Shown: positions 8,152 through 54,614 of the stretch, piece by piece
Layout: every line of letters starts with the position of its first letter
Numbering within the stretch: position 1 is the stretch's first letter
NCBI RefSeq assembly: GCF_009908265.2
Contig: NZ_JAAATX020000003.1
Location: 248,001-312,000 of the forward strand
Reading direction: 5' to 3'
DNA length: 64,000 nucleotides
Origin: Paragemmobacter amnigenus
Lineage (GTDB): Bacteria; Pseudomonadota; Alphaproteobacteria; Rhodobacterales; Rhodobacteraceae
Position numbers and translations under genes: made by a program
Notes under the pieces: generated by a model
The model's input: the letters and a program-made list of their open reading frames with translations, nothing else
Told to the model about the DNA's origin: nothing
Database searches by the model: none

Positions 8152-8565
8152 ATGACACAGACCGACCTGACCGGCCTTCGCGCCCTTGTGGCCGATGACA
8201 ACCCGATCAACCTGCAGATCATCGACTCCTTCCTGCGCCGCCTCGGCCTGCAGACCACCCTCGTCGAGAACGGGCGTCAGGCGGTCGAGGCATGGGCACC
8301 GGGACGCTTCGACATCCTCTGCCTCGACATCGCCATGCCGGAAATGGATGGCACGACCGCGCTCCAGACCATCCGCAACCGCGCCCGCGCCAGCGGCACG
8401 CAGATGACGCCGGCGGTGGCGATCACGGCCAATGCCCTGCCGCAGCAGATGTCGGAATATCTGGCCGCAGGCTTTGACGGCTGCATCGCCAAACCCGTCC
8501 GCCGCACCCAGATCGGCGAGGAATTCACCCGCATCCTGCACCGCAGCGACTGCATCCCCGTCTGA
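8152..8565 (+). CDS. Single-domain response regulator (receiver only)
   Basis: A 137-residue CheY-like receiver with no output domain. The acidic pocket is DD at 15-16, the phosphoacceptor Asp59 lies in LCLDIAMPEMDG, and the conserved Lys114 in AKPVR. Such proteins act through protein contacts or as phosphate shuttles in phosphorelays. The HWE kinase gene follows, so the two are probably co-transcribed and functionally linked. The AMPEMDG...KP pattern is the type often seen in receiver domains of hybrid kinases, so this could be a detached hybrid-kinase receiver. Confidence 0.9.
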   Translation: MTQTDLTGLRALVADDNPINLQIIDSFLRRLGLQTTLVENGRQAVEAWAPGRFDILCLDIAMPEMDGTTALQTIRNRARASGTQMTPAVAITANALPQQMSEYLAAGFDGCIAKPVRRTQIGEEFTRILHRSDCIPV

Positions 8566-8654
8566 CAGGCGCGGCGCAGGGAACCGTGACGCGCCCCCGC
8601 GCGTTTCCCGCCAGACCGGACCGCAGACACCGGATCGCAGACAGGGGGGCGTGC

Positions 8655-10076
8655 GTGACGTCGCACAGCAGCACGGGCAGGCCGCAGGGGCCCGCGTCCG
8701 GAACCGCAGACCGGCCTGCGGCAGATACCGCATTGCCTTGGGCCATCCTCGAAACCGTTCCGGCGATGATCTGGCTGGGCGACCCGCAGGGGCGCTGCGT
8801 CCTTCTGAACCGCGCGCTGCGCGATCATTGGGGCGTCGCGGATGCCGACAGTTTCGAATGGTCCGACACCCTGCATCCCGACGACGCCCCGCGCATCGCA
8901 GGCCCCTACAGCCAGGCGATGGAGCACCGCCAGCCCTTCCGGATCGAGGCCCGCTATCGCCGCGCCGACGGCGAATGGCGCATCCTGCAAACCGACGCCT
9001 GCCCCCATTTCGACAGTTCGGGGCAGTTTCTGGGTATGGTGGGCGTCAACACCGACATCACCGAACAGCGCCGGACCGAACGTGACCTGCGCCTGTCCAA
9101 GGAAAACCTCGAATTCGCCATCGAGGCCGCGGGCGAGGTCGGCACATGGATCTGGGATGTGCAGAACGACGTCCTGACCGGCGACAGCCGGACATGGTGC
9201 GGGATCGGGGACGGCGACGGGCGCCATTCCACCGGACGTTTCGCGGATTTCCTTGCCCTCGTGCATGAAGAGGACCGCGCCCGCGTCTGCGCCGCCATCA
9301 CCCGAACGCTGGAAGAGGGCAGGGATTTCCGGCTGGAATACCGGCTCTGGCAGGGCGGACATCTGCGCTGGGTCTTTGCCCTTGGCCGCTGCGAGAGGGA
9401 TGCGCTGGACAGGCCCGTCATCTTTGCCGGCGTCACCGTCGACGTGACCGACCGCCGCACGCGCGAGGATGCGGCACGGATGCTGGCGCATGAACTGTCG
9501 CACCGGCTGAAGAATGTCTTTGGCGTGATGCAGGTTTTGACGGCCCAGACCGCGCGCTGCCATCCCGACGCCACCCCCGCGCTGGACCAGCTCGCCCGTC
9601 GCATACAGGCGCTCGGCGTGGCGCAGATGCTGTCCTTTCCGGCCACCGACGCGCCCCGCGGGGAATCCGGCCTGCGCCATCTGGCCGAACGCGTCCTTGC
9701 CCCCTATGCGGTCCGCGGCGACCGTCTGGACTGGGACGGTCCCGACCTGCCCCTCTCGCCCGAAAGGGCAACGGCCCTTGCGCTGATCCTGCATGAACTG
9801 GCAACCAATTCGGCGAAATACGGCAGCCTGTCGACGAATGGCAAGGTCCGCATCACCCTGTCCACGACACCGGAGGGGGTCAGGATCGAATGGTCCGAAA
9901 CCGGTGGCCCGCCCGTTAGCACGCCCCAGACCAGCGGTTTCGGCAGCCGCCTGATCCGGCAAAGCGCGGCCAGCCTTGGCGCGCAGGACCGGTGGTTATG
10001 GCTTCCCGAAGGTCTGCTCTGGACAGTCGTCCTGCCTGCCGCAGGGCATGACGGCGGGGCCGAGACGGTCGATTAG
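8655..10076 (+). CDS. PAS-PAS HWE-family histidine kinase
   Basis: Soluble sensor kinase of about 473 residues from the preferred GTG at 8655, which has AGGGGGG six bases upstream; a GTG at 8586 would add 23 residues. Two PAS domains are present: one around ILETVPAMIWLGDPQG with a PAC end DGEWRILQTD, and one around GEVGTWIWDV with HLRWVFALGR. The HisKA_2/HWE core follows, with HELSHRLKNVFGVMQ (phosphoacceptor His about 283) and an N-box HELATNSAKYGSLS. No membrane segment is seen, so it senses a cytoplasmic signal. HWE kinases in alphaproteobacteria often feed the general stress response or light/redox sensing. It lies between two receiver proteins; its 3' end overlaps the convergent one by 81 bases. 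Confidence 0.92.
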   Translation: MTSHSSTGRPQGPASGTADRPAADTALPWAILETVPAMIWLGDPQGRCVLLNRALRDHWGVADADSFEWSDTLHPDDAPRIAGPYSQAMEHRQPFRIEARYRRADGEWRILQTDACPHFDSSGQFLGMVGVNTDITEQRRTERDLRLSKENLEFAIEAAGEVGTWIWDVQNDVLTGDSRTWCGIGDGDGRHSTGRFADFLALVHEEDRARVCAAITRTLEEGRDFRLEYRLWQGGHLRWVFALGRCERDALDRPVIFAGVTVDVTDRRTREDAARMLAHELSHRLKNVFGVMQVLTAQTARCHPDATPALDQLARRIQALGVAQMLSFPATDAPRGESGLRHLAERVLAPYAVRGDRLDWDGPDLPLSPERATALALILHELATNSAKYGSLSTNGKVRITLSTTPEGVRIEWSETGGPPVSTPQTSGFGSRLIRQSAASLGAQDRWLWLPEGLLWTVVLPAAGHDGGAETVD

Positions 10077-10412
10077 CCGCGCCAGATCGCGCGGCATATA
10101 GGGCTTTGGCACCCAGCCCAGCGGTTCCGCCGCCTCAGCCCTGCGGACATTGGCCAGATGGTCGCTGCCGGTCGCCAGAACCGACGGAATGTCCAATTCG
10201 CGGCGCAAGGTCAGCGCGACGTCGATCCCGTCCCGCACCGATGCCAGCCGCACATCGACAATCGCCAGATCGGGCCTCTCGGCACGGGCCATGGCGACCG
10301 CCGTCTCGTATCGCGCGGCGATCCCCACAACCTCGTGTCCGGCTTCCCTGAGCTCGTCCTCAATGCACATCGCAATCAGGAACTCGTCCTCGACGATCAA
10401 TATGCGCGCCAT
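9996..10412 (-). CDS. Receiver-only response regulator, convergent with HWE kinase
   Basis: A 138-residue receiver starting MARILIVEDEFLIAMCIEDEL; GGAGAGG lies just upstream of the ATG at 10412 (an upstream ATG at 10427 is possible). VEDE gives the acidic pocket, the phospho-Asp is in LAIVDVRLASVRDG and the Lys in VPKPY. There is no output domain. This subtype, with LIAMCIEDEL and DVRL..DG, is typically paired with HWE kinases. The last 81 bases lie antisense to the 3' end of the kinase gene, so mutual interference between transcripts is possible. It probably receives phosphate from that kinase. Confidence 0.88.
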   Translation of the reverse strand: MARILIVEDEFLIAMCIEDELREAGHEVVGIAARYETAVAMARAERPDLAIVDVRLASVRDGIDVALTLRRELDIPSVLATGSDHLANVRRAEAAEPLGWVPKPYMPRDLARLIDRLGPAVMPCGRQDDCPEQTFGKP

Positions 10413-10532: not shown

Positions 10533-11294
10533 TCAGGCCGCGTCCTGCCCGCCCTTCACGCCGGTGATATAGGACACGATGTCATTGCCATCCGTCTCGT
10601 CCCGCCGCAGCGACGCCACGATCCGCCCGCGCCGGAACACCACGATCCGGTCCACCAGATCGAAGACCTGCCGCAGGTTGTGGGAAATCAGGATCAGCGG
10701 CACGCCGCGGTCCTTCAGCCCGCGGATGATGTTCTCCACCTGCGCCGTCTCCTGCACGCCCAGCGCGGCGGTGGGTTCGTCCATGATCACCAGCTTCGAT
10801 GCAAAGGCCGCCGTCCGCGCGATCGACACGCATTGCCGCTGCCCACCCGACATGTTGCGGATCGGGTTGTCCACGTTCGGGATCTTCACCGCCGTGGTCT
10901 TCAGCGCCTCCAGCGTCCGCTCGCGCATCGCCTTGCGGTCCAGCCACGAAAACGGCCCCAGCCGGAACTTGAACAGCTCGCGCCCCAGAAACAGGTTCGA
11001 CGGCACGTCCAGATCGTCGGCCAGCGCCAGCGTCTGGAAGACGGTCTCGATCCCCGCCTCGCGCGCCTCCAGAGGGCCTGCGAAATTCACCGGCTGCCCG
11101 TCGAACAGGATTTCCCCCGCCGTCCGCTGCTCTACCGCCGTGACCTGCCGGACGAAGGTGGACTTGCCCGCCCCGTTATCGCCCACGACGGCCACATGCT
11201 CGCCCTCGTGCAGCACGAAATCCGCATCCTCCAGCGCATGCACGCCGCCATAGCGCTTGGTCAGGCCACGGGTTTCCAGAATGATCTTCGACAT
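10533..11294 (-). CDS. Sugar ABC transporter ATPase, single-domain FrcA type
   Basis: ATP-hydrolysing subunit of a CUT2-type importer, 253 residues. Walker A is GDNGAGKST, the signature MSGGQRQCVSIART, Walker B KLVIMDEPTAAL, and the switch His is in ISHN. Most CUT2 ATPases carry two fused nucleotide-binding domains (about 500 residues); this one has a single domain, like FrcA of the rhizobial fructose system, so it would act as a homodimer. It is the last gene of an isomerase, binding protein, permease, ATPase operon, 11 bases after the permease. The GGAA-N6-TTCC operators at the operon head suggest an inositol-type substrate rather than fructose. Confidence 0.9.
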   Translation of the reverse strand: MSKIILETRGLTKRYGGVHALEDADFVLHEGEHVAVVGDNGAGKSTFVRQVTAVEQRTAGEILFDGQPVNFAGPLEAREAGIETVFQTLALADDLDVPSNLFLGRELFKFRLGPFSWLDRKAMRERTLEALKTTAVKIPNVDNPIRNMSGGQRQCVSIARTAAFASKLVIMDEPTAALGVQETAQVENIIRGLKDRGVPLILISHNLRQVFDLVDRIVVFRRGRIVASLRRDETDGNDIVSYITGVKGGQDAA

Positions 11295-11305
11295 GGTGTC
11301 CCCCC

Positions 11306-12418
11306 TCAGCCTCGTACCCGCCGGCGTTGCCGCCACTGGTCCAGAACGACAGCCCCCACGATGATCGCGCCCTTCACCATCTCCTGGTAATAGGCATCCA
11401 GCCGGATCGAGGTGAAGCCCGAGATGATGACGGAAAAGATCGCAGCCCCCAGCACGGTACCGATGATCGACCCGCGCCCGCCCGCCAGCGACACGCCCCC
11501 GATCACCGCCATGGCGATGGCGTCGAGTTCGTACATCACCCCCATCCCCGCTTGCGCGGTCAGGTTCTTCGACGTCAGCAGCACCGCCGCCACGGCGGCC
11601 AGCATCCCCGCGATGGCATAGACCAGCACCTTGTGCCGGTCGACATTGATCCCCGACATCCGCGCCGCCGCCTCGTTCGATCCGATGGCATAGCTGCGCT
11701 TGCCGTAAAGCGTATAGGTCATGATCAGGTGGAACAGCACCGCAAGGATCACGAAGACCACCGCCGGATTCTGCCCCTGCCATGACAGAAGGCCAAAGGT
11801 CATGCCCCCCAAGAGATCGCCATTGGCAAGAGAGCCATAGCTTTCGGTCGGAAAGCTCACCGGTTGTCCGTTCGACCACCACCGCGCCGCGCCGCGCGCC
11901 GACACCATCATCCCCAGCGTCGCGATGAAGGGCGGGATGCGCGTATAGGCCACCAGCAGCCCGTTCACCAACCCCGCAAACAGCCCGCAGGCCAGCCCCA
12001 CGGCAATCGGCACGATCACCGGCAAATCCATCGCCCAGTCGCCAAAGATCGCCTTGGGGTTCGGGTTGCCGTTCACCGTCGCCGTCTGGGCAAAGCTCAT
12101 CACGATCATGGCGGTGGCCCCGACGACCGATCCCGACGACAGGTCGATCCCCCCGATGATGATGACCTGCGTCACACCCAGCGCGATGATCCCGATGATC
12201 GCCACCTGAAGGATCATGATATCCAGCCGCTGCTGGTTGAAGATCGCGTCGACATTGTCGCGCGTGTTGAACAGGAAGGAGCCCCCGTTCAACCGGTTCA
12301 GGATCTCGAAGATCAGGACGATCAGCACCAGGGCGCCAAAGACGTTCCACTCCGGTGCGCGCGTCCTTTTCGCCGGATCGTATTTCAGGCCCCCAAGGCC
12401 ATGGGTCGCATCGGCCAC
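11306..12418 (-). CDS. Sugar ABC transporter permease, CUT2/FrcC type
   Basis: Inner-membrane permease of about 370 residues with eight or more hydrophobic helices and the RbsC-family segments GGIDLSSGSVVGATAMIV and VIGGVSLAGGRGSIIG. The start is taken as the GTG at 12418, because GGGGAGGAG lies six bases upstream; an ATG at 12475 would add an unlikely, charged extension. It pairs with the ATPase and with the binding protein encoded upstream. A strong hairpin lies between the binding-protein gene and this one and should lower permease expression relative to the binding protein. Confidence 0.9.
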   Translation of the reverse strand: MADATHGLGGLKYDPAKRTRAPEWNVFGALVLIVLIFEILNRLNGGSFLFNTRDNVDAIFNQQRLDIMILQVAIIGIIALGVTQVIIIGGIDLSSGSVVGATAMIVMSFAQTATVNGNPNPKAIFGDWAMDLPVIVPIAVGLACGLFAGLVNGLLVAYTRIPPFIATLGMMVSARGAARWWSNGQPVSFPTESYGSLANGDLLGGMTFGLLSWQGQNPAVVFVILAVLFHLIMTYTLYGKRSYAIGSNEAAARMSGINVDRHKVLVYAIAGMLAAVAAVLLTSKNLTAQAGMGVMYELDAIAMAVIGGVSLAGGRGSIIGTVLGAAIFSVIISGFTSIRLDAYYQEMVKGAIIVGAVVLDQWRQRRRVRG

Positions 12419-12493
12419 GGCGTGCTCCTCCCCGCTTGCTTGTACTTTGCTGCTGTCCTGCCGATGGTGACACATCCGGCGCAGGAATAAAGC

Positions 12494-12537: not shown

Positions 12538-13479
12538 TCAGTTCTTCGCCAGATAGTTTTCGATATTGGCGGGCGTCACCAGTTCGAAGGGCACATAGAC
12601 CTTCTGTTCCACCGCCTCGCCCGCCGACAGCTTGACCGCCGCGTCCAGCGCGCCGCCGCCCTGTGCCGCTGCGTTCTGGAACACCGTGATGTCCAGTTCG
12701 CCCGCCTGCATCGACGCCAGCGCGTCCTGCGTCGCGTCCACGCCCGACACGATCACCGACCCCATGTCGATGCCCGCAGCCTTCATCGCCTGGATCGCGC
12801 CCAGCGCCATCTCGTCATTGTTGGCCAGCACGCCGTCAAAGGCCGCGCCGGTCGACAGCCAGTTGGTCATCAGCGTCTGCGCCTGATCGCGCGACCAGTT
12901 GGCGGTCTGCTGGTCGATCACATTGACCTTCACCGCGCACTCGCCCGCTTCCATCACATCGTAATAGTTCTGCGTGCGCTGCACGGCGGCCTGATTGGAC
13001 AGCTCGCCCTGCATGACATAGACGCTCACCTCGGTCTTGCCGGCGGCGGCCCACTGGTTGCACTGCTCGATGAAACCCTGACGCGAGGATTCCGACTCGT
13101 TCGACGCCACGAAGGCCTGATTGTCAGGCAGCGTGTCCACGTTGATCGGCTGGCGGTTCACATAGACCAGCGGCACGCCCGCGGCAGCGGCGGCATCCGT
13201 CATCGCCTGCGTGGCCGACGTGTCGACGGGGTTCACGATGATCGCATCCACGCCCGACGCGATGAAGTTGTTGATCTGGTCGAGCTGCTTGGCCACGTCG
13301 TTCTGCGCGTCCTCGATCTGCACCGACAGGCCCGCGGCATCTGCCTGCGCCTGAATCCCGTTGCGCAGCACGGTCAGGAAGTTGTCGTCGAACAGCGCCA
13401 TCGACACGCCGATCCCGTCGGCCATCGCGGTGCTGCCCATCAGCGAGACGAAGCCCGCGGCGATAAGGGTCTTTTTCAT
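12538..13479 (-). CDS. Periplasmic sugar/polyol-binding protein, RbsB/IbpA/MocB-like
   Basis: Substrate-binding protein of 313 residues with a Sec signal peptide (MKKTLIAAGFVSLMGSTAMA). The mature part has the peripla_BP_4 fold: IGVSMALFDDNFLTVLRNGI at its start, a VDAIIVNPVDTSATQAM segment, and GVLANNDEMALGAIQAM, the usual ligand-contact helix. Family members bind ribose, fructose, inositols or rhizopine. Two inositol-type operators upstream of the operon favour an inositol or inositol derivative. The ligand is not proven by sequence. Confidence 0.9.
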   Translation of the reverse strand: MKKTLIAAGFVSLMGSTAMADGIGVSMALFDDNFLTVLRNGIQAQADAAGLSVQIEDAQNDVAKQLDQINNFIASGVDAIIVNPVDTSATQAMTDAAAAAGVPLVYVNRQPINVDTLPDNQAFVASNESESSRQGFIEQCNQWAAAGKTEVSVYVMQGELSNQAAVQRTQNYYDVMEAGECAVKVNVIDQQTANWSRDQAQTLMTNWLSTGAAFDGVLANNDEMALGAIQAMKAAGIDMGSVIVSGVDATQDALASMQAGELDITVFQNAAAQGGGALDAAVKLSAGEAVEQKVYVPFELVTPANIENYLAKN

Positions 13480-13559: not shown

Positions 13560-14366
13560 TCAGGCCTCCACGCCCTTGCGGATGAATTCCATCGAAGCTG
13601 CCAGCGCCGCCTTCGGATCGGCCATGTCATGGACCGACGGCGCGAAGGGCTCATAGCTGATCGGGCCTTCATATCCTGCACGGCGCAGCGCGCGGATCTG
13701 GGCCACGTTGCCCAGCACGTCATCGCCATCCACCAGCACGCGATGCGGATCCCGCATGTCATCCAGCGCGATCATGTCCTTGACGCCCGAGACATGGACG
13801 ATCCCCGTCAACTCCGGATAGATCGGCCCGAACCCCGCCAGCGCGTGGTGGAAGGTGTCATGCACCATGAAATAGGTACCCACCCCACCGACCGCGTCGA
13901 TCGCATCCGCCAGCACTTCCTTGTAACGCAGCGAACAGACGGCAAAGCCAAGGGGTTCCACCATCGCGCGCAGCCCGTGCGCCTTAAGCATCGGCAGGAT
14001 TTCCCGCAGCGCGGTTTCGGTCACCTTCCGGCTCTCGCCCCGCTCCGTCGCCACGCCATCGTTGCGCGGGATCAGGCTGACCGCCTCGGCCCCCGCCGCC
14101 GCCGCGACCTGCATCAACGCCTCGGCCTCCGCCGCCTTGGCATCGGACCAGTCGTTGAACATCTTGACCTCGGCCAAGGCCAGAAAGCGCAGGCCCCGCG
14201 CCCTCACCGCCGCCCCCACCGCCGCCGGATCGGCCCCGCCGAACAGCGGCCCCGTCAGGTCGTTGCGGTATTCCACCCCGACGCAGCCCAGACCGGCTGC
14301 CAGATCGGCAAACCCCTCCCAGCCCATCTTCGGTGCAGTCATGTGGTTCAGGGCAAAGGGCAGCAT
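13560..14366 (-). CDS. TIM-barrel sugar isomerase/epimerase, IolI-like
   Basis: First gene of the sugar transporter operon, 268 residues from ATG 14366 with AAGGAAG upstream. It has the xylose-isomerase-like TIM-barrel layout: LALAEVKMF, ..VEPLGFAVCSLR.. (a metal-ligand Glu), MVHDTFHH (Asp/His ligands) and a late SYEPF glutamate. Homologues include 2-keto-myo-inositol isomerase (IolI), IolE-type dehydratases and hydroxypyruvate isomerases. The two GGAA-N6-TTCC sites in front support an inositol pathway role, probably on a keto-inositol. Which of these reactions it performs cannot be decided here. Confidence 0.75.
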   Translation of the reverse strand: MLPFALNHMTAPKMGWEGFADLAAGLGCVGVEYRNDLTGPLFGGADPAAVGAAVRARGLRFLALAEVKMFNDWSDAKAAEAEALMQVAAAAGAEAVSLIPRNDGVATERGESRKVTETALREILPMLKAHGLRAMVEPLGFAVCSLRYKEVLADAIDAVGGVGTYFMVHDTFHHALAGFGPIYPELTGIVHVSGVKDMIALDDMRDPHRVLVDGDDVLGNVAQIRALRRAGYEGPISYEPFAPSVHDMADPKAALAASMEFIRKGVEA

Positions 14367-14709: not shown

Positions 14710-15741
14710 TCAGACCGACTCGGCCACGTGCAACTGGATCGGCAGAAACACCTGCCCCGCCCCGCCCGCGCCGCCGTCCCGCACCGCGCGGACCATCAAC
14801 CCCAGCACCTCGCGGCACAGATCGGGCAGCGGCGTCGCATCGACCAGCGTCACCCATCCCTGCGCCAGTCCTGCCCGCGATTCCGTCGTCAACTCGTTGA
14901 CCACCAAGGCCACCTCGCCCGGCTTGCGCGCCTGTTGCAGCGCGGCGATGGCGCCCTCCATCCCGCCGCCCGCGACATAGATGCCCCGCAGATCGGGATG
15001 GCGGTTCAGAAGACCCCGCGTGGTTTCCAAGGTCAGTTGACGCGTCTCGAGGTTGACGATCGTGTCCAGAACATCCAGATCGGGCCGCTCCTCGCGCAGA
15101 AAGGTGCGGAACCCCGTCTCGCGCAGGTCATGCCCATGCCAGCGCGCCCCGCCGACGATCAGTGCGACCTTGCCCGCTCCCTTGGCCGACAGGGAAATCA
15201 TCCATCCCGCCGTCCGCCCGACCTTCAGATTGTTCAGCCCGACATAACCCGCGCGCACGCCTTGGGCGAAATCGGACAGCAGGGAAAAGACGGGCACGCC
15301 CCGCGCGCGCAACTCCTCGACCGTCGCGGTGATCTCGGGGTGGTTGACCGCCGTCGCGGCAATGACGTCACAACGCCCCGCCATGGCGCGCAGCAGACCT
15401 GCCACCTCGCTGGGCGACTGGCTGGCCGCAAAGTCGAGCTCCATCTGCCCCTTCACCCCCGGCAACAGCGACATGGCCGCGCGGAACTCGGCCGCCATGT
15501 TCTGGTAGAATTCCTGCCCCTGCTTGTGCAGCAGAACCCCGAAGCGGATCGTCGGAACCGAAACCCCGCCCCCCGCCATCAACCGCGCCGCCGCCGGATG
15601 CCCGATCCGCAGCGCGGCCTCCAGCACCAGCGTCCGGGTCGCGGCCGACACCTGCTCGCGCCCGTTTAGTAGCCGGTCCACCGTCGCCACCGACACACCC
15701 GCCGCCGCCGCCAGCGCGGCCATTCCCGGACGTCTTGCCAT
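14710..15741 (-). CDS. LacI-family transcriptional regulator
   Basis: A 343-residue repressor with an N-terminal helix-turn-helix (MAALAAAAGVSVATVDRLLN) and a periplasmic-binding-protein-like ligand domain. The usual LacI second motif VSxxTVSRVLN reads VSVATVDRLLN here, as in regulators of rhizobial sugar and polyol operons. It is divergent from the mocD-mocE-panB-like operon, with 138 bases between, and lies downstream of the inositol-type transporter operon on the other side. It probably controls the divergent operon through the inverted repeat at 15757-15790. The effector is likely a sugar or polyol. Confidence 0.88.
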   Translation of the reverse strand: MARRPGMAALAAAAGVSVATVDRLLNGREQVSAATRTLVLEAALRIGHPAAARLMAGGGVSVPTIRFGVLLHKQGQEFYQNMAAEFRAAMSLLPGVKGQMELDFAASQSPSEVAGLLRAMAGRCDVIAATAVNHPEITATVEELRARGVPVFSLLSDFAQGVRAGYVGLNNLKVGRTAGWMISLSAKGAGKVALIVGGARWHGHDLRETGFRTFLREERPDLDVLDTIVNLETRQLTLETTRGLLNRHPDLRGIYVAGGGMEGAIAALQQARKPGEVALVVNELTTESRAGLAQGWVTLVDATPLPDLCREVLGLMVRAVRDGGAGGAGQVFLPIQLHVAESV

Positions 15742-15756: not shown

Positions 15757-15790
15757 TTTTCGTCAAACCTGCCCACCACTATGACGAAAA
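15757..15790. promoter_or_regulatory. Inverted repeats in the lacI / mocD divergent promoter
   Basis: TTTTCGTCA (15757-15765) and TGACGAAAA (15782-15790) are perfect nine-base arms 16 bases apart. A second pair, GCCGTCC (15798-15804) and GGACGGC (15820-15826), follows. One of these is the probable operator of the adjacent LacI protein; which one is not known. Confidence 0.5.
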
Positions 15791-15879
15791 CGTCCCTGCC
15801 GTCCAGCAATCCTCCTACCGGACGGCGGAACGACTGTTCTAATCTTCCCCGAAAGCGCCCCCCAGAGGAGAGCACAGAG

Positions 15880-16974
15880 ATGTCCAAGAGAGATTATAGC
15901 CTTCTCGGCCCCGATGGTGCCCGCGCCGTCGAGACCGGACTTGCCGCGGCGGAGTGGTATCACACAGATGTCCCCCGCAAGGTGATGAAAGAGTTGATGC
16001 AGCGCTCGGACCAGCCCGCGATCCGCGACACGATGATCCTTTACGGCTGCATGATCGCCTTTGCCGCCGGTGGCATCGCGTTCTGGGGGACGTGGTGGTG
16101 CGTTCCCTTCTGGGCTGCCTATGGCGTCCTCTACGGGTCTGCCTCCGATTCGCGCTGGCACGAATGCGGCCACGGCACCGCCTTCCGGACTGCGTGGATG
16201 AACAACGCCGTCTATGAAATTGCCTCCTTCATGATCATGCGCAATTCGGCGACATGGCGGTGGAGCCATGCCCGCCACCACACCGACACCTACATCGTCG
16301 GCCGCGACCCCGAAATCGCCATCATGCGCCCCCCCGCCTTCGTCAGGCTGATCGGCGCCTTCTTCGGCATCCCGGACGTGATCGACTTCTTCCCCCGCAT
16401 GATCCGCAACGCCCTGTCCGGCCCCACGGCGGAAGAACGCACCTTCGTCCCGCAATCCGAATGGGCCAAGGTGCAGCGTGTGGCGATCGTCTACACCGCG
16501 ATCTACGCGGCCACCGCCGCCACCGCGGTTGCGACCGGCTCCATCCTGCCGCTGATGGTGATCGGCCTGCCCCGCATGTATGGCGCATGGCACCACATCA
16601 TGACGGGCCTGCTGCAGCACGGCGGGCTGGCCGACAACGTCATCGACCACCGGCTGAATTCCCGCACCGTCTACATGAACCCGATCAGCCGCTTCATCTA
16701 CTGGAACATGAACTACCACGTGGAACACCACATGTTCCCGATGGTCCCCTATCACGCTCTCCCGCGCCTGCACGAGGTCATCAAGCACGACCTGCCCGCG
16801 CCCAACCGCTCCATCGCGTCGGCCTTCGCCGAGATGTGGCCCGCCCTGCGCCGCCAGTTGGCTTACGAGGATTACTTCCTCAAACGCGACCTGCCCCCCA
16901 CCGCGAAACCCTATCGCGAGGATTTCCACCGCGCCGCCTTGGGCGACCTGCCCGACGCCCTTCCCGCCGAATGA
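15880..16974 (+). CDS. mocD: MocD-like membrane di-iron oxygenase (desaturase family)
   Basis: Fatty-acid-desaturase-superfamily protein of 364 residues with the three histidine boxes: HECGH (94-98), HARHH (130-134) and HVEHH (280-284). Hydrophobic segments flank them (about 51-88 and 205-235). The start at 15880 has AGAGGAG upstream. MocD of rhizobia, with ferredoxin MocE and a reductase MocF, is linked to demethylation of the inositol derivative 3-O-methyl-scyllo-inosamine. A MocE-type Rieske protein follows after 10 bases, so a MocDE oxygenase is likely. No MocF gene is seen nearby. A true fatty-acid desaturase is the alternative, but the dedicated Rieske partner argues against it. Confidence 0.8.
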   Translation: MSKRDYSLLGPDGARAVETGLAAAEWYHTDVPRKVMKELMQRSDQPAIRDTMILYGCMIAFAAGGIAFWGTWWCVPFWAAYGVLYGSASDSRWHECGHGTAFRTAWMNNAVYEIASFMIMRNSATWRWSHARHHTDTYIVGRDPEIAIMRPPAFVRLIGAFFGIPDVIDFFPRMIRNALSGPTAEERTFVPQSEWAKVQRVAIVYTAIYAATAATAVATGSILPLMVIGLPRMYGAWHHIMTGLLQHGGLADNVIDHRLNSRTVYMNPISRFIYWNMNYHVEHHMFPMVPYHALPRLHEVIKHDLPAPNRSIASAFAEMWPALRRQLAYEDYFLKRDLPPTAKPYREDFHRAALGDLPDALPAE

Positions 16975-16984
16975 GGACCACCCA

Positions 16985-17299
16985 ATGCCCCAATGGATCC
17001 GCGCCTGCGCCACCGATGACATCGACGAAGAGGATCTGATCCGCTTCGACCATGGCGGTGCGACCTATGCCATCTACCATTCCCCCGAAGGCGACTTCTT
17101 CGCCACCGCCGGGCTTTGCACGCACGAGAACATCCACCTCTGCGACGGCCTCGTGATGGGCCACCTGATCGAATGCCCAAAACATAACGGCCAGTTCGAC
17201 TATCGCACGGGCGAAGCCAAACGCGCCCCCGTCTGCGTCAACCTGCGGACCTATCCGGTCAGGGTCGACGGCACCGACGTCTATATCGAGGTGCCGTGA
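16985..17299 (+). CDS. mocE: MocE-type Rieske [2Fe-2S] ferredoxin
   Basis: A 104-residue Rieske protein with both cluster motifs: CTH (Cys45, His47) and CPKH (Cys64, His67). It starts MPQWIRACATDDIDEEDLI and resembles ferredoxins of aromatic dioxygenases and MocE. Its role is to pass single electrons to the adjacent MocD-like di-iron oxygenase. Its stop overlaps the next start by one base (TGATG). The electron donor is not in this cluster; a general ferredoxin reductase must be supplied elsewhere. Confidence 0.88.
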   Translation: MPQWIRACATDDIDEEDLIRFDHGGATYAIYHSPEGDFFATAGLCTHENIHLCDGLVMGHLIECPKHNGQFDYRTGEAKRAPVCVNLRTYPVRVDGTDVYIEVP

Positions 17300-18099
17300 T
17301 GCCCGCCCGCCTGACCGTCCGCGACCTCTTGGACCAGCGCGGCAAGCACCAGTTCGCCATGCTCCGCGTCGAAACGCTGGAAGAGGCAGAGGCCGCCGAA
17401 AAGGCCGGCGTCGAACTCCTGTCGGTGCCACCGTCGATGATCCTCGACCGCCGCTTCCGCGAGGTGGCCCCCACCGCCTTCGCCTTTCCGGGCGAAAACT
17501 TCTACGAAATCGGGGATACTGCCGATTTCCTGAAATGGGCCTTCCCGCTTTATAAACACGGGGCAGACGGCTTTTACTGCTCGGGCTCGCTGCAAACCGT
17601 GCGCGCCATGGCCGATCACGGCCTTCCCGTCTGCGGCCATGTCGGGCTGATCCCGTCGAAACGCACTTGGACCGGCGGGTTCAAGGCGGTGGGCAAGACG
17701 CTGGAAACCGCGCAACTTGTCTGGAACCAGTGCAAGGCTCTGGAAGAGGCGGGCGCCTTCGCGGTCGAGATCGAGGTCGTCCCCCATTCCATCACGCAGG
17801 CCATCGCGGAACGGACGGGCCTTTTCCTCATCTCGATGGGCGCGGGCGCGGGCGGGCACGCGCAATACCTGTTCACCGATGACGTGCTGGGCCAGAACAC
17901 CGGCCACATCCCGCGCCACGCCAAGGTCTATGCCGATTTCGCGGGCGAATACGCACGGCTTCAGGACAAGCGCATCGCGGCCATGCGCGCCTTTGCCGAC
18001 GACGTGCATGGCGGCGACTATCCCGCCCCCCAGCATCTTGTCGACAGCGATGCCGATGTCGTCGCAGCCTTCCGCGACTGGCTGGACCGCGTCGCCTGA
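17299..18099 (+). CDS. PanB-family protein with altered metal site
   Basis: A 266-residue homologue of ketopantoate hydroxymethyltransferase, the TIM-barrel enzyme that adds a one-carbon unit from methylene-tetrahydrofolate to ketoisovalerate. Clear family segments are PVCGHVGLIP (110-119), GGFKAVGKT (126-134), ALEEAGAFAVEIEVVP (147-162) with a Glu at the catalytic-base position, and SMGAGAGG. The metal-binding motifs have changed: VGDS reads SVPPS (42-46), KLEGG reads YCSGS (93-97), and no DLPF motif is seen. It is therefore unlikely to be an ordinary PanB. It is coupled to mocE by a one-base overlap, so it probably serves the MocDE pathway, perhaps in one-carbon or aldol chemistry. Function unproven. 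Confidence 0.75.
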   Translation: MPARLTVRDLLDQRGKHQFAMLRVETLEEAEAAEKAGVELLSVPPSMILDRRFREVAPTAFAFPGENFYEIGDTADFLKWAFPLYKHGADGFYCSGSLQTVRAMADHGLPVCGHVGLIPSKRTWTGGFKAVGKTLETAQLVWNQCKALEEAGAFAVEIEVVPHSITQAIAERTGLFLISMGAGAGGHAQYLFTDDVLGQNTGHIPRHAKVYADFAGEYARLQDKRIAAMRAFADDVHGGDYPAPQHLVDSDADVVAAFRDWLDRVA

Positions 18100-18185: not shown

Positions 18186-19058
18186 TCAGGGTGCCGCGCG
18201 CGAGACGTGCCGCGCCGCGGCCTCGGCCGCGCGGTCACAGGCGGGACGCAGCCCCGCCCCGCCCGCCAAGGCAGCGGCAAGCGTGCCGATGAAGCAATCC
18301 CCCGCCCCGTGGCTGCTGACCACGTCGACCTTGCGCGCGGGCAGGTCGAAGGCCTCTCCGCCGACCATCACCGCGGCCAGCCCCTGCCCGCCTGCCGTCA
18401 CGATCACATCCCCCCCCGCCGCCGCCAGCACCCGTGCCGCCGCCAGCGCGCCCGCGCGGTCCGACACCGCCCCGCCGCCCATCATCTCGGCCTCGACGGC
18501 ATTCACGACCAGCACATCCACCAGCCGCCGCAGCGGAATGGACAGGCTCCGCGCGGGGGCAGCGTTCAGGATCACCCGCACACCCCGCCCCCGCGCCGCC
18601 TGCGCCGCGGCAAGGTTGATCGCCTCGGGCACCTCGTTCTGCAGGACCAGAACCGCCACGCCCTCCCAGAGCGCGGGGTCTTCCAGACCCGCCACGTCCA
18701 GATGCAGGTTTGCGCCCGACACGATCGTCGCGGCATAGTCCCCGCCGGCTTCGACCACCGCGACGCTCATCCCCGACCCGACGCCCGCGACCGTCTGTAC
18801 AAAGCGGCGGTCCACCCCGCCGGTATCCAGCGCGGCCAGAAGATAGTCCCCGAACCCGTCGCGCCCCACCGCCCCGAACATCCGCCCGCGCGCGCCTGCC
18901 GCAACCGCAGCCACGGCCTGATTGCCGCCCTTTCCGCCGAATTTCGGATACCACCGCCGCCCCACCGCCGTTTCGTCGACACGCGGCAGGCGGTCCGCCT
19001 CGATCATGATGTCATGGTGCAGCGATCCCGCGACCAGAACGACAGCGCCTGTGGACAT
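18186..19058 (-). CDS. PfkB-family carbohydrate kinase, ribokinase-like
   Basis: A 290-residue cytosolic sugar kinase. The N-terminal signature is GGKGGNQAVAAV; the C-terminal anion-hole and catalytic base region is GAGDCFIGTLAAAL (catalytic Asp in GAGD). The overall form is closest to ribokinase. It converges on the mocD-mocE-panB-like operon and may phosphorylate a sugar or keto-polyol of the same pathway, but the substrate cannot be read from the sequence. The start ATG 19058 gives the usual beta-strand VVLVAGSLHHDIM at the N-terminus. Confidence 0.88.
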   Translation of the reverse strand: MSTGAVVLVAGSLHHDIMIEADRLPRVDETAVGRRWYPKFGGKGGNQAVAAVAAGARGRMFGAVGRDGFGDYLLAALDTGGVDRRFVQTVAGVGSGMSVAVVEAGGDYAATIVSGANLHLDVAGLEDPALWEGVAVLVLQNEVPEAINLAAAQAARGRGVRVILNAAPARSLSIPLRRLVDVLVVNAVEAEMMGGGAVSDRAGALAAARVLAAAGGDVIVTAGGQGLAAVMVGGEAFDLPARKVDVVSSHGAGDCFIGTLAAALAGGAGLRPACDRAAEAAARHVSRAAP

Positions 19059-48000: not shown

Positions 48001-48113
48001 GGCCGGACCCTAGGCCCGCTGCCGCCACCGACGCAACAGGCGACATCCCGCCCCCTCGCCATTCCCCGCGCCAGCGCCTAGTGTCCGGCGCGGAAACAGG
48101 ACAGACGCAGGCC

Positions 48114-50297
48114 ATGCAAGACCCCCTTCCCCTCGTGCAGGACATCGTCCTCGTCGGCGGCGGCCACGCCCACGCCCTCGTCCTGCGTATGTGGGCGATG
48201 GACCCGCTGCCCGGCATCCGCCTGACCGTCATCAACCCCGCCCCCGCCGCCCCCTATACCGGCATGCTCCCCGGCCTGATCGCAGGGCATTACCGGCAGG
48301 ACGAGATCATGATCGACCTCGTCCGCCTCGCCCGTTTCGCAGGGGCCCGCGTAATCCTCGACTGCGCCACCGGCCTCGATCCGGCCGCGAAACGCATCCA
48401 CCTCGCGCAGCGCCCGCCCCTGCGCTACGACCTCGCCTCCATCGACATCGGCATCGGCTCGGGCCTTCCCGACATCGCGGGCTTCTCCGCCCACGCCACG
48501 GCGGCGAAACCGCTGGGCGACTATGCCCGCCGGTGGGAGAGCTTCCTCGCCACCGCCCCGCAAGCGCCCCGCATCACCATCATCGGCGCAGGCATCGGCG
48601 GGGTGGAACTCGCCCTCGCCTCGGCCCACCGCCTGCGCGCCACGGGACGCGACCCGCAGGTCACGCTGCTCGACCTTGCCCCCGAAGCCCTGCCCAATAT
48701 CGGCCCCCGCGCCCGCGCCACCCTGCTGGACCGCCTCGCCCGCGACGGCATCCGCCTGCTCACCGGCACCACGGCGACAGCGATCGGCGCGACCGACATC
48801 ACCCTCTCCGACGGCACCACCCTGCCCTCCGACTTCACCCTCTCCACCGCCGGCACCCGCCCGCAGACATGGCTCGCGGAAACCGGTCTCGCGCTCCATG
48901 ACGGCTTCCTCGCCGTCACCGAAGCGCTGCAAACCTCCGACCCCGCCATCTTCGCCGCGGGCGACTGCGCCCACCTCACCCACGCCCCCCGCCCCAAGGC
49001 CGGCGTCTACGCCGTCCGCGCCGCGCCGGTCCTGCTGCACAACCTGCGCGCCGCCGCCACCGGCCGCCCCCTGCAACCCTTCCACCCCCAGCGCGACTAC
49101 CTCAAACTCGTCTCGCTGGGCCGGCGCGAAGCCGTGGCCGACAAGTTCGGCCTCCGCTCCGGCGGTGCATGGCTCTGGCGGCTGAAGGACCGGATCGACC
49201 GCAAGTTCATGGCGAAGTTCGAAGACTACCCCGCCATGCCCCGCCCCCTCCCCTCCCCCGCCCCCACCGGACTGGCCGAGGCGCTGGGCACCAAACCCCT
49301 CTGCGGCGGCTGCGGTGCCAAGGTCGGCCCCGCCGCCCTGTCACAGGCGCTGGGCACCCTCACCCGCCCCGCCCGACCCGATGTCATCGCAGGCGCGGGC
49401 GACGACGCCGCCATCCTGTGCCACGGTCAGGGCCTGCAGGTCATCACCACCGACCACCTGCGCGCCACCTGCGCCGACCCGCGCCTCATGTCCCGCATCA
49501 CCGCCATCCACGCGCTGGGCGACATCTGGGCCATGGGCGCCGCCCCGCAGGCGGCTCTGGCCCAGATCACCCTCCCCCGCCTCTCGCCCGCCCTGCAATC
49601 CGACATGCTGGCCGAGATCATGGAGGAAGCCGCCGCCATCTTCCGCGCCGAAGGGGCCGATATCGTGGGCGGCCACACCACCATGGGCGCCGAACTCACC
49701 ATCGGCTTCACCCTCACCGGCCTGACCGACCGCGCCATCACCAAGGCGGGCGCCCGCGCGGGCGACGCCCTGATCCTGACCAAACCGCTCGGCTCCGGCA
49801 CGATCATGGCCGCCGACATGGCACTTGCCCGCCCGCCCGAAGGGCTGCTCGGCGACCACGTCGCCGCCGCCTATGCCAGCATGTCCCGCCCGCAGGGCAA
49901 CGCCGCCCGCCTCCTCGCCCGCCACGCCACGGCCATGACGGATGTCACGGGCTTCGGCCTCGCAGGCCACCTGCTCGAAATGCTCGAAGCCTCCGGCTGC
50001 GCCGCCACCCTCGACCTTTCCGCCCTCCCCCTCCTCCCGGGGGCCGAGGCTCTGGCGCGCATGGGCATCGCCTCCTCCATCGCCCCCGCCAACCGCGCCG
50101 CGGTGGACTGGCGCCTCACCGCCCCCGCCACCCCGCGCGCGGCCCTCCTCTTCGACCCCCAGACCGCAGGCCCCCTTCTGGCCGCGATCCCCGCAGATCA
50201 GGCCGAAAAGACCCTCGCCGCCCTCCATGCCACGGGCGAACCCGCCACGATCATCGGCCACGTCACCGCAGGCCCCCCGCACCTGACCGCGCGCTGA
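48114..50297 (+). CDS. selD: FAD oxidoreductase fused to selenophosphate synthetase SelD
   Basis: A 727-residue fusion. The first ~370 residues are a two-dinucleotide-fold NAD(P)H/FAD oxidoreductase (IVLVGGGHAHALVL; second GxGxxG in IIGAGIGGVELAL; FAAGDCAHL). The SelD part follows from about residue 385, with LCGGCGAKVG near its start, AGAGDDAAIL, and DIVGGHTTMGAEL. SelD makes selenophosphate from selenide and ATP. The oxidoreductase domain may deliver or reduce the selenium substrate; this fusion exists in other bacteria but the role of the first domain is not settled. MnmH is encoded nearby on the other strand, so selenouridine in tRNA is the likely use. Confidence 0.92.
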   Translation: MQDPLPLVQDIVLVGGGHAHALVLRMWAMDPLPGIRLTVINPAPAAPYTGMLPGLIAGHYRQDEIMIDLVRLARFAGARVILDCATGLDPAAKRIHLAQRPPLRYDLASIDIGIGSGLPDIAGFSAHATAAKPLGDYARRWESFLATAPQAPRITIIGAGIGGVELALASAHRLRATGRDPQVTLLDLAPEALPNIGPRARATLLDRLARDGIRLLTGTTATAIGATDITLSDGTTLPSDFTLSTAGTRPQTWLAETGLALHDGFLAVTEALQTSDPAIFAAGDCAHLTHAPRPKAGVYAVRAAPVLLHNLRAAATGRPLQPFHPQRDYLKLVSLGRREAVADKFGLRSGGAWLWRLKDRIDRKFMAKFEDYPAMPRPLPSPAPTGLAEALGTKPLCGGCGAKVGPAALSQALGTLTRPARPDVIAGAGDDAAILCHGQGLQVITTDHLRATCADPRLMSRITAIHALGDIWAMGAAPQAALAQITLPRLSPALQSDMLAEIMEEAAAIFRAEGADIVGGHTTMGAELTIGFTLTGLTDRAITKAGARAGDALILTKPLGSGTIMAADMALARPPEGLLGDHVAAAYASMSRPQGNAARLLARHATAMTDVTGFGLAGHLLEMLEASGCAATLDLSALPLLPGAEALARMGIASSIAPANRAAVDWRLTAPATPRAALLFDPQTAGPLLAAIPADQAEKTLAALHATGEPATIIGHVTAGPPHLTAR

Positions 50298-50503: not shown

Positions 50504-51544
50504 TCACTGACCGGAAACCAGCCCCGCGATCCGGTCGGCCAGCGCGCCCAGATCGTCCAGCCCCTCGACCGCCACCTCGGTAAAGGGCACCTCCATCCGC
50601 GCGCGGTGCTTGCCATAGCGCGGGTCGTAATGGTGCTCCATCAACCCGTCGGCCAGCGCGGCGAACTCCCCCGCCGCGGCCATCGCGCGCCACTCCGCGA
50701 TCCGCTCGCGCGGATGGGCCAGCGCAAGCTGCGCCACGACCGCATCCAGCCGCGCCACATCCGCCACCAGATCGGCATAGGCCCGCACCAGATACCCCGC
50801 CCGTGCCGCCCGCGGGGCCGCGATCGCCACGCGGGGCGCGGCCACCATCGCCCGCCACAGCTTGGGCGGCAGGCGGCAATCGCCGACCTTGGCGCTCTCC
50901 GCCTCCACCACCACCGGCCGCGCCGGATCAAGCCGCGCCAGCGCCAGCGCCAGCCGCCCTTCAAAGGCCTTCTGGCTCGGCTGTTCGCCCATCGACCCGA
51001 AGAGCGACCCGCGATGGTTCGCCAGCCCCTCCAGATCGATGACCTGCACCCCCCGCGCGGGCAAAAGGTTCAGCACCTCGGTCTTGGCCGACCCCGTATT
51101 CCCGTCCAGCACGACCAGCCGATGCGCGAAGGGCTGGTTGTAGAGCGCATCCACCACCAGCCGCCGCCAGGTCTTGTAGCCGCCCGCGACCACCTCCACC
51201 CGCCAGCCGATCTGGCTCAGGATCGACGCGAAACTCCCCGACCGCTGCCCCCCGCGCCAGCAATAGACCAAGGGCCGCCACCCGCCGGGCTTGTCGGCCA
51301 AGGGCCCCTCCAGATGCCGCGCCGCGTTCTTGGCCACCAGCGCCGCCCCGATCTTGCGCGCCGAAAAGGGGCTGACCTGCTTGTAGATCGTGCCCACCCG
51401 CGCCCGTTCCTCGTCATCCAGAACGGGCAGGGATATCGCGCCGGGCACATGATCCTCGGCCCATTCGGCAGGCGCGCGCACGTCGATGATATCGTCGAAA
51501 TCCAGCGCCAGCACATCCGCCAGCGAATTGAGTACCACCGCCAT
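50504..51544 (-). CDS. mnmH: tRNA 2-selenouridine synthase MnmH
   Basis: A 346-residue enzyme that replaces sulfur by selenium at the wobble uridine of some tRNAs, using selenophosphate. The N-terminal rhodanese domain has the catalytic Cys in LVYCWRGGQRSGS; the P-loop domain has LDGNTGSAKTEVLN. It converges on selD across a repeat-rich region. Its ATG overlaps the stop of the ArgE-like gene (ATGA), so it is translated from the same transcript. No selA, selB or tRNA-Sec gene is in the window. Confidence 0.93.
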   Translation of the reverse strand: MAVVLNSLADVLALDFDDIIDVRAPAEWAEDHVPGAISLPVLDDEERARVGTIYKQVSPFSARKIGAALVAKNAARHLEGPLADKPGGWRPLVYCWRGGQRSGSFASILSQIGWRVEVVAGGYKTWRRLVVDALYNQPFAHRLVVLDGNTGSAKTEVLNLLPARGVQVIDLEGLANHRGSLFGSMGEQPSQKAFEGRLALALARLDPARPVVVEAESAKVGDCRLPPKLWRAMVAAPRVAIAAPRAARAGYLVRAYADLVADVARLDAVVAQLALAHPRERIAEWRAMAAAGEFAALADGLMEHHYDPRYGKHRARMEVPFTEVAVEGLDDLGALADRIAGLVSGQ

Positions 51545-52698
51545 CAGAACCCCGCCTCGCAGCGCGCGACCAGCGCCGCCAGCATCGCCTCGCACCGCGC
51601 CATCTGCTCGACCGTGACGAACTCGTCCGGCTTGTGCCCCTGCGCCATAGACCCCGGCCCGCAGATCACCGTGGGCACCCCCAGCCGCGCATCGAACAGA
51701 CCCCCTTCCGTGCCGAAGGCCACCTTGATCGTGCCATTCGCCCCCGTCAGCCCCTTCACGAAATTCACCACATCCGCATCCGACGGCGTGCCCAGCCCGG
51801 GATAATCCCACAACCGCTCGATCCGGATCTCCGCCTCGGGGAATTCCGCCCGCAGCGGCGCGACAACCGCCTCGCAACCCGCGCGGACCTCCTCGATCAG
51901 CCCCGCCACATCCTCGCCCGCCAGCGACCGGATCTCCCAATCCGCCACCGCGCCGTTGGGCACGATGTTCACCTGCACCCCGCCCGACATCTTGCCCACA
52001 TGCAACGTCGTATAGGGCACGTCATAATCCCCATCCCGCAGCCCCTCTGCCGCCACCCGCGCCTGAACGCCGCGCAGCACCCCCACGAAATCCGCCGCCA
52101 GATGCAGCGCGTTCAGCGCAAGGGGCGCCAGCGCCGAATGCCCCTCGCGCCCCACGCAGGTCGCGCGCAACGCGACCTTCCCCTTGTGCCCAGTCGCCAC
52201 CGCCATCCCCGTGGGTTCCCCCACGATGCACATCCGCGGCCGGACCGGCGCCGCTTCCAGCATCTCGATCATCGACCGCACGCCCATGCAGCCGATCTCC
52301 TCGTCATAGGACAGCGCCAGATGCAGCGGCACCCGCAACGGCCGCTTCGCCGCGTCCAGAACGGCGGCAATGGCACAGGCGACAAAGCCCTTCATGTCCG
52401 CCGTCCCGCGCCCGTAATAGCGCCCCTCCGCCTCGGTCAGTTCAAAGGGCGGATGCGTCCAGGCCTGCCCCTCCACCGGCACCACGTCGGTATGCCCCGA
52501 CAGCATCACCCCACCCGCGCCCGCAGGCCCGACCGTCGCGTAAAGATTGGCCTTCCCGCCCCCCGCATCGGGGATCAGCACCGCCTCCACCCCGGCCCCG
52601 GCCAGCAAACCCGCCACCCAGTCCATCAGCGCCCTGTTCGGGCGATGGCTCACCGTGTCAAAGGCGATCAGCCGTTCCAGTATCGCGCGCGCATCCAT
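51544..52698 (-). CDS. Acetylornithine deacetylase-like M20 peptidase (ArgE type)
   Basis: A 384-residue zinc-dependent M20 hydrolase. Metal-site segments are MLSGHTDVVPVEGQAW, GRGTADMKGF, SYDEEIGCMG and EPTGM; the dimerisation domain starts at GKVALRATCVGREGHSALAP. These match ArgE, which deacetylates N-acetylornithine. Rhodobacteria usually use the cyclic OAT route, so a more general N-acyl amino acid deacylase is possible. ATG 52698 begins MDARAILERLIAFDTVS. Its stop overlaps the mnmH start by four bases, an unexpected pairing. Confidence 0.88.
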   Translation of the reverse strand: MDARAILERLIAFDTVSHRPNRALMDWVAGLLAGAGVEAVLIPDAGGGKANLYATVGPAGAGGVMLSGHTDVVPVEGQAWTHPPFELTEAEGRYYGRGTADMKGFVACAIAAVLDAAKRPLRVPLHLALSYDEEIGCMGVRSMIEMLEAAPVRPRMCIVGEPTGMAVATGHKGKVALRATCVGREGHSALAPLALNALHLAADFVGVLRGVQARVAAEGLRDGDYDVPYTTLHVGKMSGGVQVNIVPNGAVADWEIRSLAGEDVAGLIEEVRAGCEAVVAPLRAEFPEAEIRIERLWDYPGLGTPSDADVVNFVKGLTGANGTIKVAFGTEGGLFDARLGVPTVICGPGSMAQGHKPDEFVTVEQMARCEAMLAALVARCEAGF

Positions 52699-54579: not shown

Positions 54580-54614
54580 TTGCCTCACTCCTTGTCTCTC
54601 CGGCCCGCAGGGGA

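Follow-up and report, generated by a model that had tools for sequence, protein, structure and literature searches.

Why would a homologue of the ketopantoate hydroxymethyltransferase PanB be encoded directly behind a membrane oxygenase and a Rieske ferredoxin? The question is raised by a stretch of 64,000 nucleotides from Paragemmobacter amnigenus (G000:C3:248001-312000, hereafter the window, where G000 denotes its genome of 4.14 Mb in 37 contigs and L-numbers designate compared loci), in which mocD, mocE and a gene coding for a PanB-like protein form a tight operon that is divergent from the gene of a LacI-type regulator and from an operon encoding a triose-phosphate isomerase (TIM) barrel protein and an ATP-binding cassette (ABC) transporter. 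A first-pass annotation had proposed that this operon may oxidatively demethylate a methoxy-inositol or similar polyol ether, with the PanB-like protein handling the one-carbon (C1) unit or a product aldol. The genomic predictions of this idea, conserved linkage with inositol and moc genes as neighbours, are borne out by our comparison, and a plain PanB activity appears unlikely. On balance, we lean slightly towards a joint account in which demethylation of an O-methyl inositol would be combined with C1 transfer onto tetrahydrofolate (THF) via the PanB-like protein. Taken by itself, the step in which MocD and MocE would oxidatively demethylate an inositol-type compound carrying an O-methyl group is probable from our analysis, and a C1 role of the PanB-like protein is rather likely. 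The finding amounts to a modified form of the known moc oxygenase system, in which LacI replaces the regulator and an undescribed partner is added.

Architecture of the operon

The first gene of the operon, mocD (15880-16974, plus strand), encodes a membrane di-iron oxygenase of the FA_desaturase fold (PF00487, 126.3 bits at a cut-off of 29.7) with the histidine boxes HECGH, HARHH and HVEHH at residues 94, 130 and 280. The protein is 68.0% and 70.9% identical to MocD of L203 and L199, two plasmid clusters bearing MocR, and presumably constitutes the O-demethylase component of the system. After a gap of 10 bases, mocE (16985-17299, plus strand) codes for a Rieske [2Fe-2S] ferredoxin with a C-x-H...C-x-x-H motif, which exceeds the cut-off of the MocE family (TIGR02377, 167.8 bits against 136.15) and is the putative electron donor for MocD. 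The TGA of mocE shares one base with the ATG of the PanB-like gene (17299-18099, plus strand), whose match to PF02548 (121.5 bits) is limited to residues 86-243. Coordinates and family scores agree with the packing of the three genes described in the first-pass annotation.

Conserved linkage of MocD and the PanB-like protein

Linkage was quantified in 292 genomes of the same order with thresholds of E ≤ 1e-40 for PanB-like proteins and E ≤ 1e-60 for MocD, which identified 42 PanB-like genes in 35 genomes and MocD in 54. MocD resides within 5 kb of 26 of the 42 PanB-like loci (25 MocD genes compared to 0.12 expected at random; Poisson P 4e-49) and is found in 31 of the 35 genomes with a PanB-like gene but in only 23 of the 257 others (31 with both, 4 with the PanB-like gene only, 23 with MocD only and 234 with neither; Fisher P 6e-23), with the significance of these and the following linkage tests being overstated because related genomes were counted as independent, which inflates the P values. 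IolG above its curated cut-off is located within 10 kb of 16 of the 42 loci (0.26 expected, P 2e-23). For PurU, whose product is formate, 12 genes above the cut-off were found in the 35 PanB-like genomes, and a PanB-like gene is at most 5 kb away from three of the 12 (0.039 expected, P 1e-5).

A wider set was compiled from 144 PanB-like open reading frames, 106 of which are flanked by 7 kb on both sides and which were reduced to 77 loci at 85% identity. The 80 loci from genome contigs are the best 80 of at least 565 relatives and are skewed towards Rhodobacterales, and the rhizobial data are confined to plasmids and genome contigs. Among the matches listed, the closest PanB-like relatives originate from Rhodobacterales (Rhodobacter, Tabrizicola, Gemmobacter). 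Within 7 kb of the PanB-like gene, MocD and MocE were each detected in 60 of the 77 dereplicated loci and both together in 54, so the three genes also occur together elsewhere, as the initial proposal had implied. MocD or an oxygenase of the sterol-desaturase type is found near 63 and LacI near 49 of these loci; the inositol genes and the MocF-type reductase anticipated as neighbours are also found, with IolG or IolB near 20 and MocF near 15. One PanB-like gene, in Rhodobacter kunshanensis (L039:10001-10798), contains an in-frame stop close to its C-terminal end and was omitted from the alignments.

The genome of P. amnigenus contains two further PanB-like loci, L137 (G000:C3:187500-205500) and L139 (G000:C14:41500-59500), which both include MocE, dehydrogenases of the IolG or Gfo/Idh type, an ABC transporter and a gene that by eye resembles the sterol-desaturase type of L142. 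FolD, PurU and a MocF-like gene (49% identical to R. etli MocF) are additionally present in L139.

Linkage to the rhizopine regulator MocR

The system with the closest functional precedent is rhizopine catabolism, for which, as for other topics, papers are cited here for the available parts of their text. This process involves mocC together with mocDEF and a mocD promoter that is inducible by rhizopine (PMC10107442), and MocD has been named a rhizopine oxygenase that converts 3-O-methyl-scyllo-inosamine (3-O-MSI) to scyllo-inosamine (SI) (PMC2593844). The regulator MocR (NF052281, cut-off 650 bits) was identified in Rhizobium leguminosarum A1 (L203, 751.3 bits), Phyllobacterium zundukense (L199, 765.1 bits), Sinorhizobium meliloti RCAM1115 (L236, 756.5 bits) and Rhizobium lentis (L237, 740.1 bits), and each of these clusters continues behind it with mocD, mocE, mocF, the PanB-like gene and purU in this order. 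In L236, mocD (at about 8860-10125) is unannotated and its frame is apparently broken near the 5' end, with the other moc genes being present. Because the four clusters had been reached by way of the PanB-like gene or the L203 cluster and are uninformative on frequency, a search was also made from the side of MocR. A MocR-like gene at E ≤ 1e-120 was detected in 24 of 72,556 plasmid records. In all 14 records where its identity is at least 80%, a PanB-like gene is located within 3 kb, and the DNA match covering mocD to purU extends to the end of purU. The PanB-like gene therefore travels with an oxygenase system linked to the O-demethylation of an inositol derivative and with a folate C1 enzyme, which speaks for a C1 function next to a demethylase of inositol ethers.

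Related arrangements are found in rhizobia with a LacI-type regulator. In M. huakuii (L037) and A. tumefaciens HAMBI 105 (L201), LacI and mocDEF are followed by the PanB-like gene, purU and folD. The order LacI-mocDEF-PanB-like gene, with no purU in the stretch, is found in R. etli (L036), R. leguminosarum WSM2304 (L038) and on S. meliloti pSymB (L198). On pSymB of S. meliloti 1021, the PanB-like gene was located at NC_003078.1:610001-610789. Rhizobium sp. K102 (L202) displays the order LacI-mocD-mocE-PanB-like gene-ABC transporter. For the LacI regulator FixV it was described that homologues are divergent from mocDEF with an epimerase gene downstream, and an inositol derivative was proposed as signal (PMC3538637). 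Root exudate of Mimosa, which contains pinitol at a higher concentration than any other component, upregulates the mocDEF homologues of R. mesoamericanum 1.53-2.11-fold, a response that was interpreted by its authors as rhizopine catabolism (PMC5789663).

The operon of the window shares with rhizopine mocDEF (mocR, mocABC; S. meliloti L5-30, R. leguminosarum), which is represented here by the MocR-bearing clusters L199 and L203, a MocD with three histidine boxes and a MocE that are 62.5-70.9% identical to the proteins of both clusters, a divergent regulator, sugar ABC transporter and dehydrogenase genes, and the PanB-like gene that in the MocR-bearing plasmids lies downstream. It differs by a LacI-type regulator instead of MocR and by the absence of purU alongside, and mocF was found neither within 15880-18099 nor directly behind it. 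The substrate-binding protein (SBP) of the window scores 41.1 in the rhizopine SBP model at a cut-off of 420, a weak distinction because, at the E-values used, the MocR-bearing clusters L199, L203 and L236 likewise have SBPs that fail to reach this model. With the arrangement of FixV/Msi360, the epimerase Msi119 and mocDEF (PMC3538637), the window has in common the LacI gene, the downstream TIM-barrel gene and the divergent mocD; it is distinguished by the additional ABC operon and PanB-like gene and by its LacI, which shares just 47.1% and 49.6% identity with two regulators of this kind, located beside mocDEF on R. etli pA and S. meliloti pSymB. The operon carries the defining features of neither a rhizopine operon (MocR, mocF in the operon) nor PanB.

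Searches of open-licence papers in PubMed Central (PMC) retrieved none on a PanB-like partner of mocDE, in line with the statement of the first-pass annotation that no described pathway is known to join the three proteins, and the available parts of PMC10107442 and PMC3538637 do not mention such a partner for the rhizopine and FixV systems. Two candidate papers were set aside, since the mocD of PMC6341043 is another gene, of mannopine catabolism, and the mocDEF of P. syringae in PMC5132102 resides beside a second xylose isomerase gene without a PanB-like partner. In the available literature we found no description of what becomes of the methyl group when rhizopine or methyl-inositols are broken down. 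A direct and testable answer would be offered by the 14 MocR-bearing plasmid records, in which purU comes behind the PanB-like gene.

The link to inositol metabolism

The evidence linking the mocDE-PanB-like system to inositol is strong. The ABC operon of relatives frequently has a gene of the short-chain dehydrogenase/reductase (SDR) family and IolG at its end. Of 84 stretches, 31 contain the IolG cluster and 12 the SDR cluster, and the one representative of the IolG cluster that was scored reaches 433.4 bits at the inositol 2-dehydrogenase cut-off of 355. The ABC operon of the window does not include iolG, which is found about 40 kb away (53578-54618, minus strand; 416.9 bits at the same cut-off, with the match at G000:C3:301596-302573). 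It is paired with an SDR oxidoreductase (54615-55409, minus strand), assigned by its position and by eye from comparison with the SDR of L058, and the pair resembles the ABC-SDR-iolG order of relatives. IolB is present above cut-off elsewhere in the genome (332.5 bits).

MocD can also lie in iol-type clusters that lack the PanB-like gene, as judged partly by eye for L188 and L189, which contain a PfkB-DUF2090 kinase, which we take to be an iol enzyme, a TIM barrel and Gfo/Idh genes, and in L189 a relative of IolB. In L184-L187, MocD without PanB-like gene is accompanied by Gfo/Idh-type dehydrogenases, an SDR and another TIM barrel. This context and the identity of MocD to its counterparts in L203 and L199 make it very improbable that MocD, although belonging to PF00487, is an ordinary lipid desaturase or hydroxylase with incidental inositol neighbours.

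In L161 (G450:C1:464500-482500), an operon comprises genes for MocD, MocF, MocE, the PanB-like protein, a second MocD, a sterol-desaturase type, an SMP30 lactonase and an IlvD-type dehydratase, with a divergent ABC transporter alongside, a gene set that suggests catabolism of an O-methyl aldose rather than of inositol. Molybdopterin and Complex1_51K-type genes resembling formate dehydrogenase (L194:2055-6585) are located near a MocD of 76% identity (8393-9514) without PanB-like neighbour.

Oxygenases of other families

PanB-like genes are also found beside oxygenases other than MocD, in loci that were picked by hand for scanning and do not represent a frequency count. Proteins of the FA_hydroxylase type (PF04116) are encoded beside distant PanB-like genes in L145, which includes MocE, and in L148, an oxygenase of the PhyH type in L162, L163 and L170, and Rieske oxygenases in L158 and L166. 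In three genomes of 1.4 Mb, the PanB-like gene directly follows a relative of MocD with 35-37% identity. This variety of oxygenases is as expected if their shared product were a C1 unit. The common factor is an enzyme capable of oxidising a methyl group, and a C1 role is therefore favoured over a role that is specific to cyclitols. In L158, L159 and L160, all from 1.4 Mb genomes, a glutamine-synthetase-like gene (scored in L160) is found near the PanB-like gene and its divergent MocD, joined in L158 by the Rieske oxygenase; these neighbourhoods possibly serve another methylated substrate. A gene of the trimethylamine-methyltransferase type is located nearby in L147.

Properties of the PanB-like protein

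The PanB-like protein scores below the cut-offs of the panB models (TIGR00222, 92.6 against 207.55; PRK00311, 110.5 against 272), and in a phylogenetic tree that contains some long-branch rows, 10 true PanB proteins are separated from 56 PanB-like sequences by a branch with 100/100 support. Its AlphaFold model (mean pLDDT 92.8, pTM 0.84) finds PanB as best match among solved structures (1m3u, TM score 0.69). Common to both proteins are this fold, the histidine of the GH-x-GL motif (His114) and the catalytic glutamate, E181 in PanB and Glu159 here, which is kept in 54 of 54 aligned PanB-like sequences. The differences concern the residues D45, D84 and E114, which we take to be the metal ligands of PanB in E. 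coli numbering. The position of E114 is occupied by Ser, Ala or Gly in all 54 sequences and that of D84 by Phe in 53 and His in one. For D45 of the VGDS motif the alignment is ambiguous, with Asp in 4 of 54 rows of the MAFFT column and Pro in A1, and no Asp is conserved. Residues that are invariant or nearly so and, apart from His114, new relative to PanB are Tyr93, Cys94 (52 of 54), His114, Trp124, Glu157, Arg206 and His207. The kept glutamate and the PanB fold would be compatible with a THF-linked C1 reaction, and the protein is presumably a C1/THF enzyme. Matches to phage records at E ≤ 1e-10 number 11, none covering 80% of the query; the five listed share 25.6-34.0% identity and four of them are annotated as 3-methyl-2-oxobutanoate hydroxymethyltransferase. 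A phage link was rejected on the basis of the low coverage and of the identity among the listed matches.

How else could the PanB-like protein act? It might be a lyase or retro-aldolase of the phosphoenolpyruvate (PEP)-mutase/isocitrate-lyase superfamily that processes the demethylated or oxidised cyclitol skeleton, with PurU and FolD merely belonging to the same regulon. Such a function would agree with the next matches of the fold search, which are the petal death protein, 2-methylisocitrate lyases and phosphonopyruvate hydrolase, with the loss of the PanB metal ligands, after which the chemistry may have changed, and with the skeleton-processing TIM-barrel isomerases and Gfo/Idh/MocA dehydrogenases that are frequent neighbours. 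We nevertheless consider it unlikely, since the protein is kept at the PhyH and Rieske loci L162, L166 and L170, where no iol gene was found, since lyases of the PEP-mutase/isocitrate-lyase type are also metal-dependent and since a lyase acting on cyclitols would leave the position of purU immediately after the PanB-like gene unexplained.

In a second alternative, MocD and MocE would hydroxylate a C-methyl group or another carbon, and the PanB-like protein would move the resulting CH2OH onto THF. This would be the chemistry of PanB run backwards and would use the glutamate kept in all sequences. The replacement of E114 and D84 in the metal site that binds the keto acid and the inositol enzymes in the neighbourhood make this improbable, as does the O-methyl substrate of the published MocD precedent (PMC2593844).

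Finally, plasmid records label the proteins as ketopantoate hydroxymethyltransferase, a name that looks wrong for this branch: a spare enzyme for coenzyme A synthesis that is here by chance was rejected and has a negligible probability, given the true panB elsewhere in the genome (349.9 bits), the scores below cut-off, the separate branch and an oxygenase linkage far above chance, and because the conserved metal ligands of PanB are lost.

A proposed route from methylated inositol to tetrahydrofolate

From the gene order, the protein families, the conserved linkage, the lost metal ligands and the kept glutamate, we infer the following chemistry for the joint account. An O-methylated inositol of the pinitol or ononitol type would be imported by the ABC transporter and relieve the control by LacI. 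MocD would receive electrons from MocE and, in rhizobia, from MocF; a MocF-like reductase is encoded at another locus of the P. amnigenus genome. By analogy to rhizopine MocDEF, MocD would hydroxylate the O-methyl carbon, giving an unstable hemiacetal that decays to inositol and formaldehyde. The inositol would continue via IolG and the iol route, with the TIM-barrel protein isomerising a keto or epimeric form. The PanB-like protein would load the C1 unit, as formaldehyde or hemiacetal, onto THF to yield 5,10-methylene-THF, whose C1 unit FolD and PurU, where present, would oxidise to formate. A precedent is the purU-mabO-folD operon of pAO1 in nicotine demethylation, where the methyl group is loaded onto THF and where the review gives formaldehyde as end product (PMC3891541). 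Both systems would combine an oxidative demethylation with the transfer of the methyl carbon to THF, next to FolD and PurU; in pAO1 the oxidase MABO itself makes methylene-THF, which in the moc system would be the task of a separate PanB-like candidate.

Several observations weigh against this account, beyond the overstated significance of the linkage. PurU and FolD are found within 7 kb of only 11 and 4 of the 77 dereplicated loci, and one of the three PurU genes close to a PanB-like gene in the same-order genomes (G047) is on the opposite strand. Among the 54 genomes with MocD, 23 lack a PanB-like gene at E ≤ 1e-40, L195 has the order TIM-ABC-iolG-mocD-mocE without it, and in Nitratireductor rhodophyticola (L200), iolG-ABC-TIM-LacI-mocDEF-purU is found with no PanB-like gene in the stretch. 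The 14 close MocR records are almost copies of one another and stem from a small number of lineages (R. leguminosarum/indicum/lentis, Phyllobacterium, S. meliloti/kummerowiae). In the other 10 records the MocR-like gene is remoter (46-48%) and may not code for a rhizopine regulator; among the PanB-like records listed, 60 of 252, none places a PanB-like gene within 10 kb of it. In L146, L149 and L174, the reference search revealed no relative of MocD, of the sterol-desaturase type or of MocE near the PanB-like gene, and no oxygenase was apparent by eye. In addition, the reaction of formaldehyde with THF does not require an enzyme (PMC4814558), and binding of THF by the PanB-like protein is not readable from its sequence.

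A broader proposal, about which we are rather doubtful, is that the PanB-like family constitutes a dedicated formaldehyde-to-THF enzyme that serves demethylases of the MocD, sterol-desaturase, PhyH and Rieske types. Having lost the metal ligands for the keto acid, such an enzyme would accept formaldehyde or an O-CH2OH hemiacetal as substrate, and the C1 unit might be held as an S-hydroxymethyl adduct on Cys94, assisted by His114 and Glu157/Glu159. Its role would parallel, for folate, that of the formaldehyde-activating enzyme in methylotrophs, and it would occur even in streamlined genomes of 1.4 Mb. If true, the loading of formaldehyde onto THF would fill a gap in the C1 metabolism of non-methylotrophs and be useful for formaldehyde detoxification and the engineering of methylated-sugar use. 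The system also bears on the signal that is sensed by FixV-type LacI regulators in nodules, which contain pinitol among other cyclitols (PMC8730688).

Regulation and genomic surroundings

The LacI-type regulator is encoded at 14710-15741 (minus strand), divergent from mocD. Its presence confirms one part of the LacI-controlled divergent promoter described initially, and its control of the operon is plausible from this position. The gap between both genes contains an operator candidate (15757-15790, no strand assigned), a perfect 9-base inverted repeat whose arms TTTTCGTCA (15757-15765) and TGACGAAAA (15782-15790) are separated by a 16-base spacer. Among 73 LacI-mocD intergenic regions, the window included, paired arms with at most one mismatch each were found in 11 and at least one half-site in 47, and this partial recurrence makes the repeat a weak lead as operator. 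Half-sites of TGACGAAAA recur in the window and in related LacI-mocD gaps, often about 10 or 42 bases apart, and are a possible candidate for a FixV-type operator. A scan for promoters and terminators revealed nothing useful.

Further genes on the minus strand code for the xylose-isomerase-like TIM barrel, an epimerase or isomerase (13560-14366; PF01261, 75.9 bits) with 47.7% identity to its R. etli pA counterpart, and for the sugar ABC transporter, consisting of the SBP (12538-13479; PF13407, 163.6 bits), the permease (11306-12475; PF02653, 150.6 bits) and the ATPase (10533-11300; PF00005, 96 bits). The solved chain nearest to the SBP is 4yo7, whose ligand is presumably myo-inositol. The sugar transporter operon noted in the first-pass annotation is present as described. 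The PfkB kinase that had been counted to the same surroundings is encoded at 18186-19058 (minus strand), facing the mocD-mocE-PanB-like operon, and was rejected as a member of the system because PfkB relatives are found within 7 kb of just 3 of the 77 dereplicated loci. At a distance from these genes, positions 48081-50297 of the window contain what by eye looks like a selD-like gene fused to an NADH-dehydrogenase-like part, which adjoins a gene that by eye resembles selU/mnmH (50504-51940).

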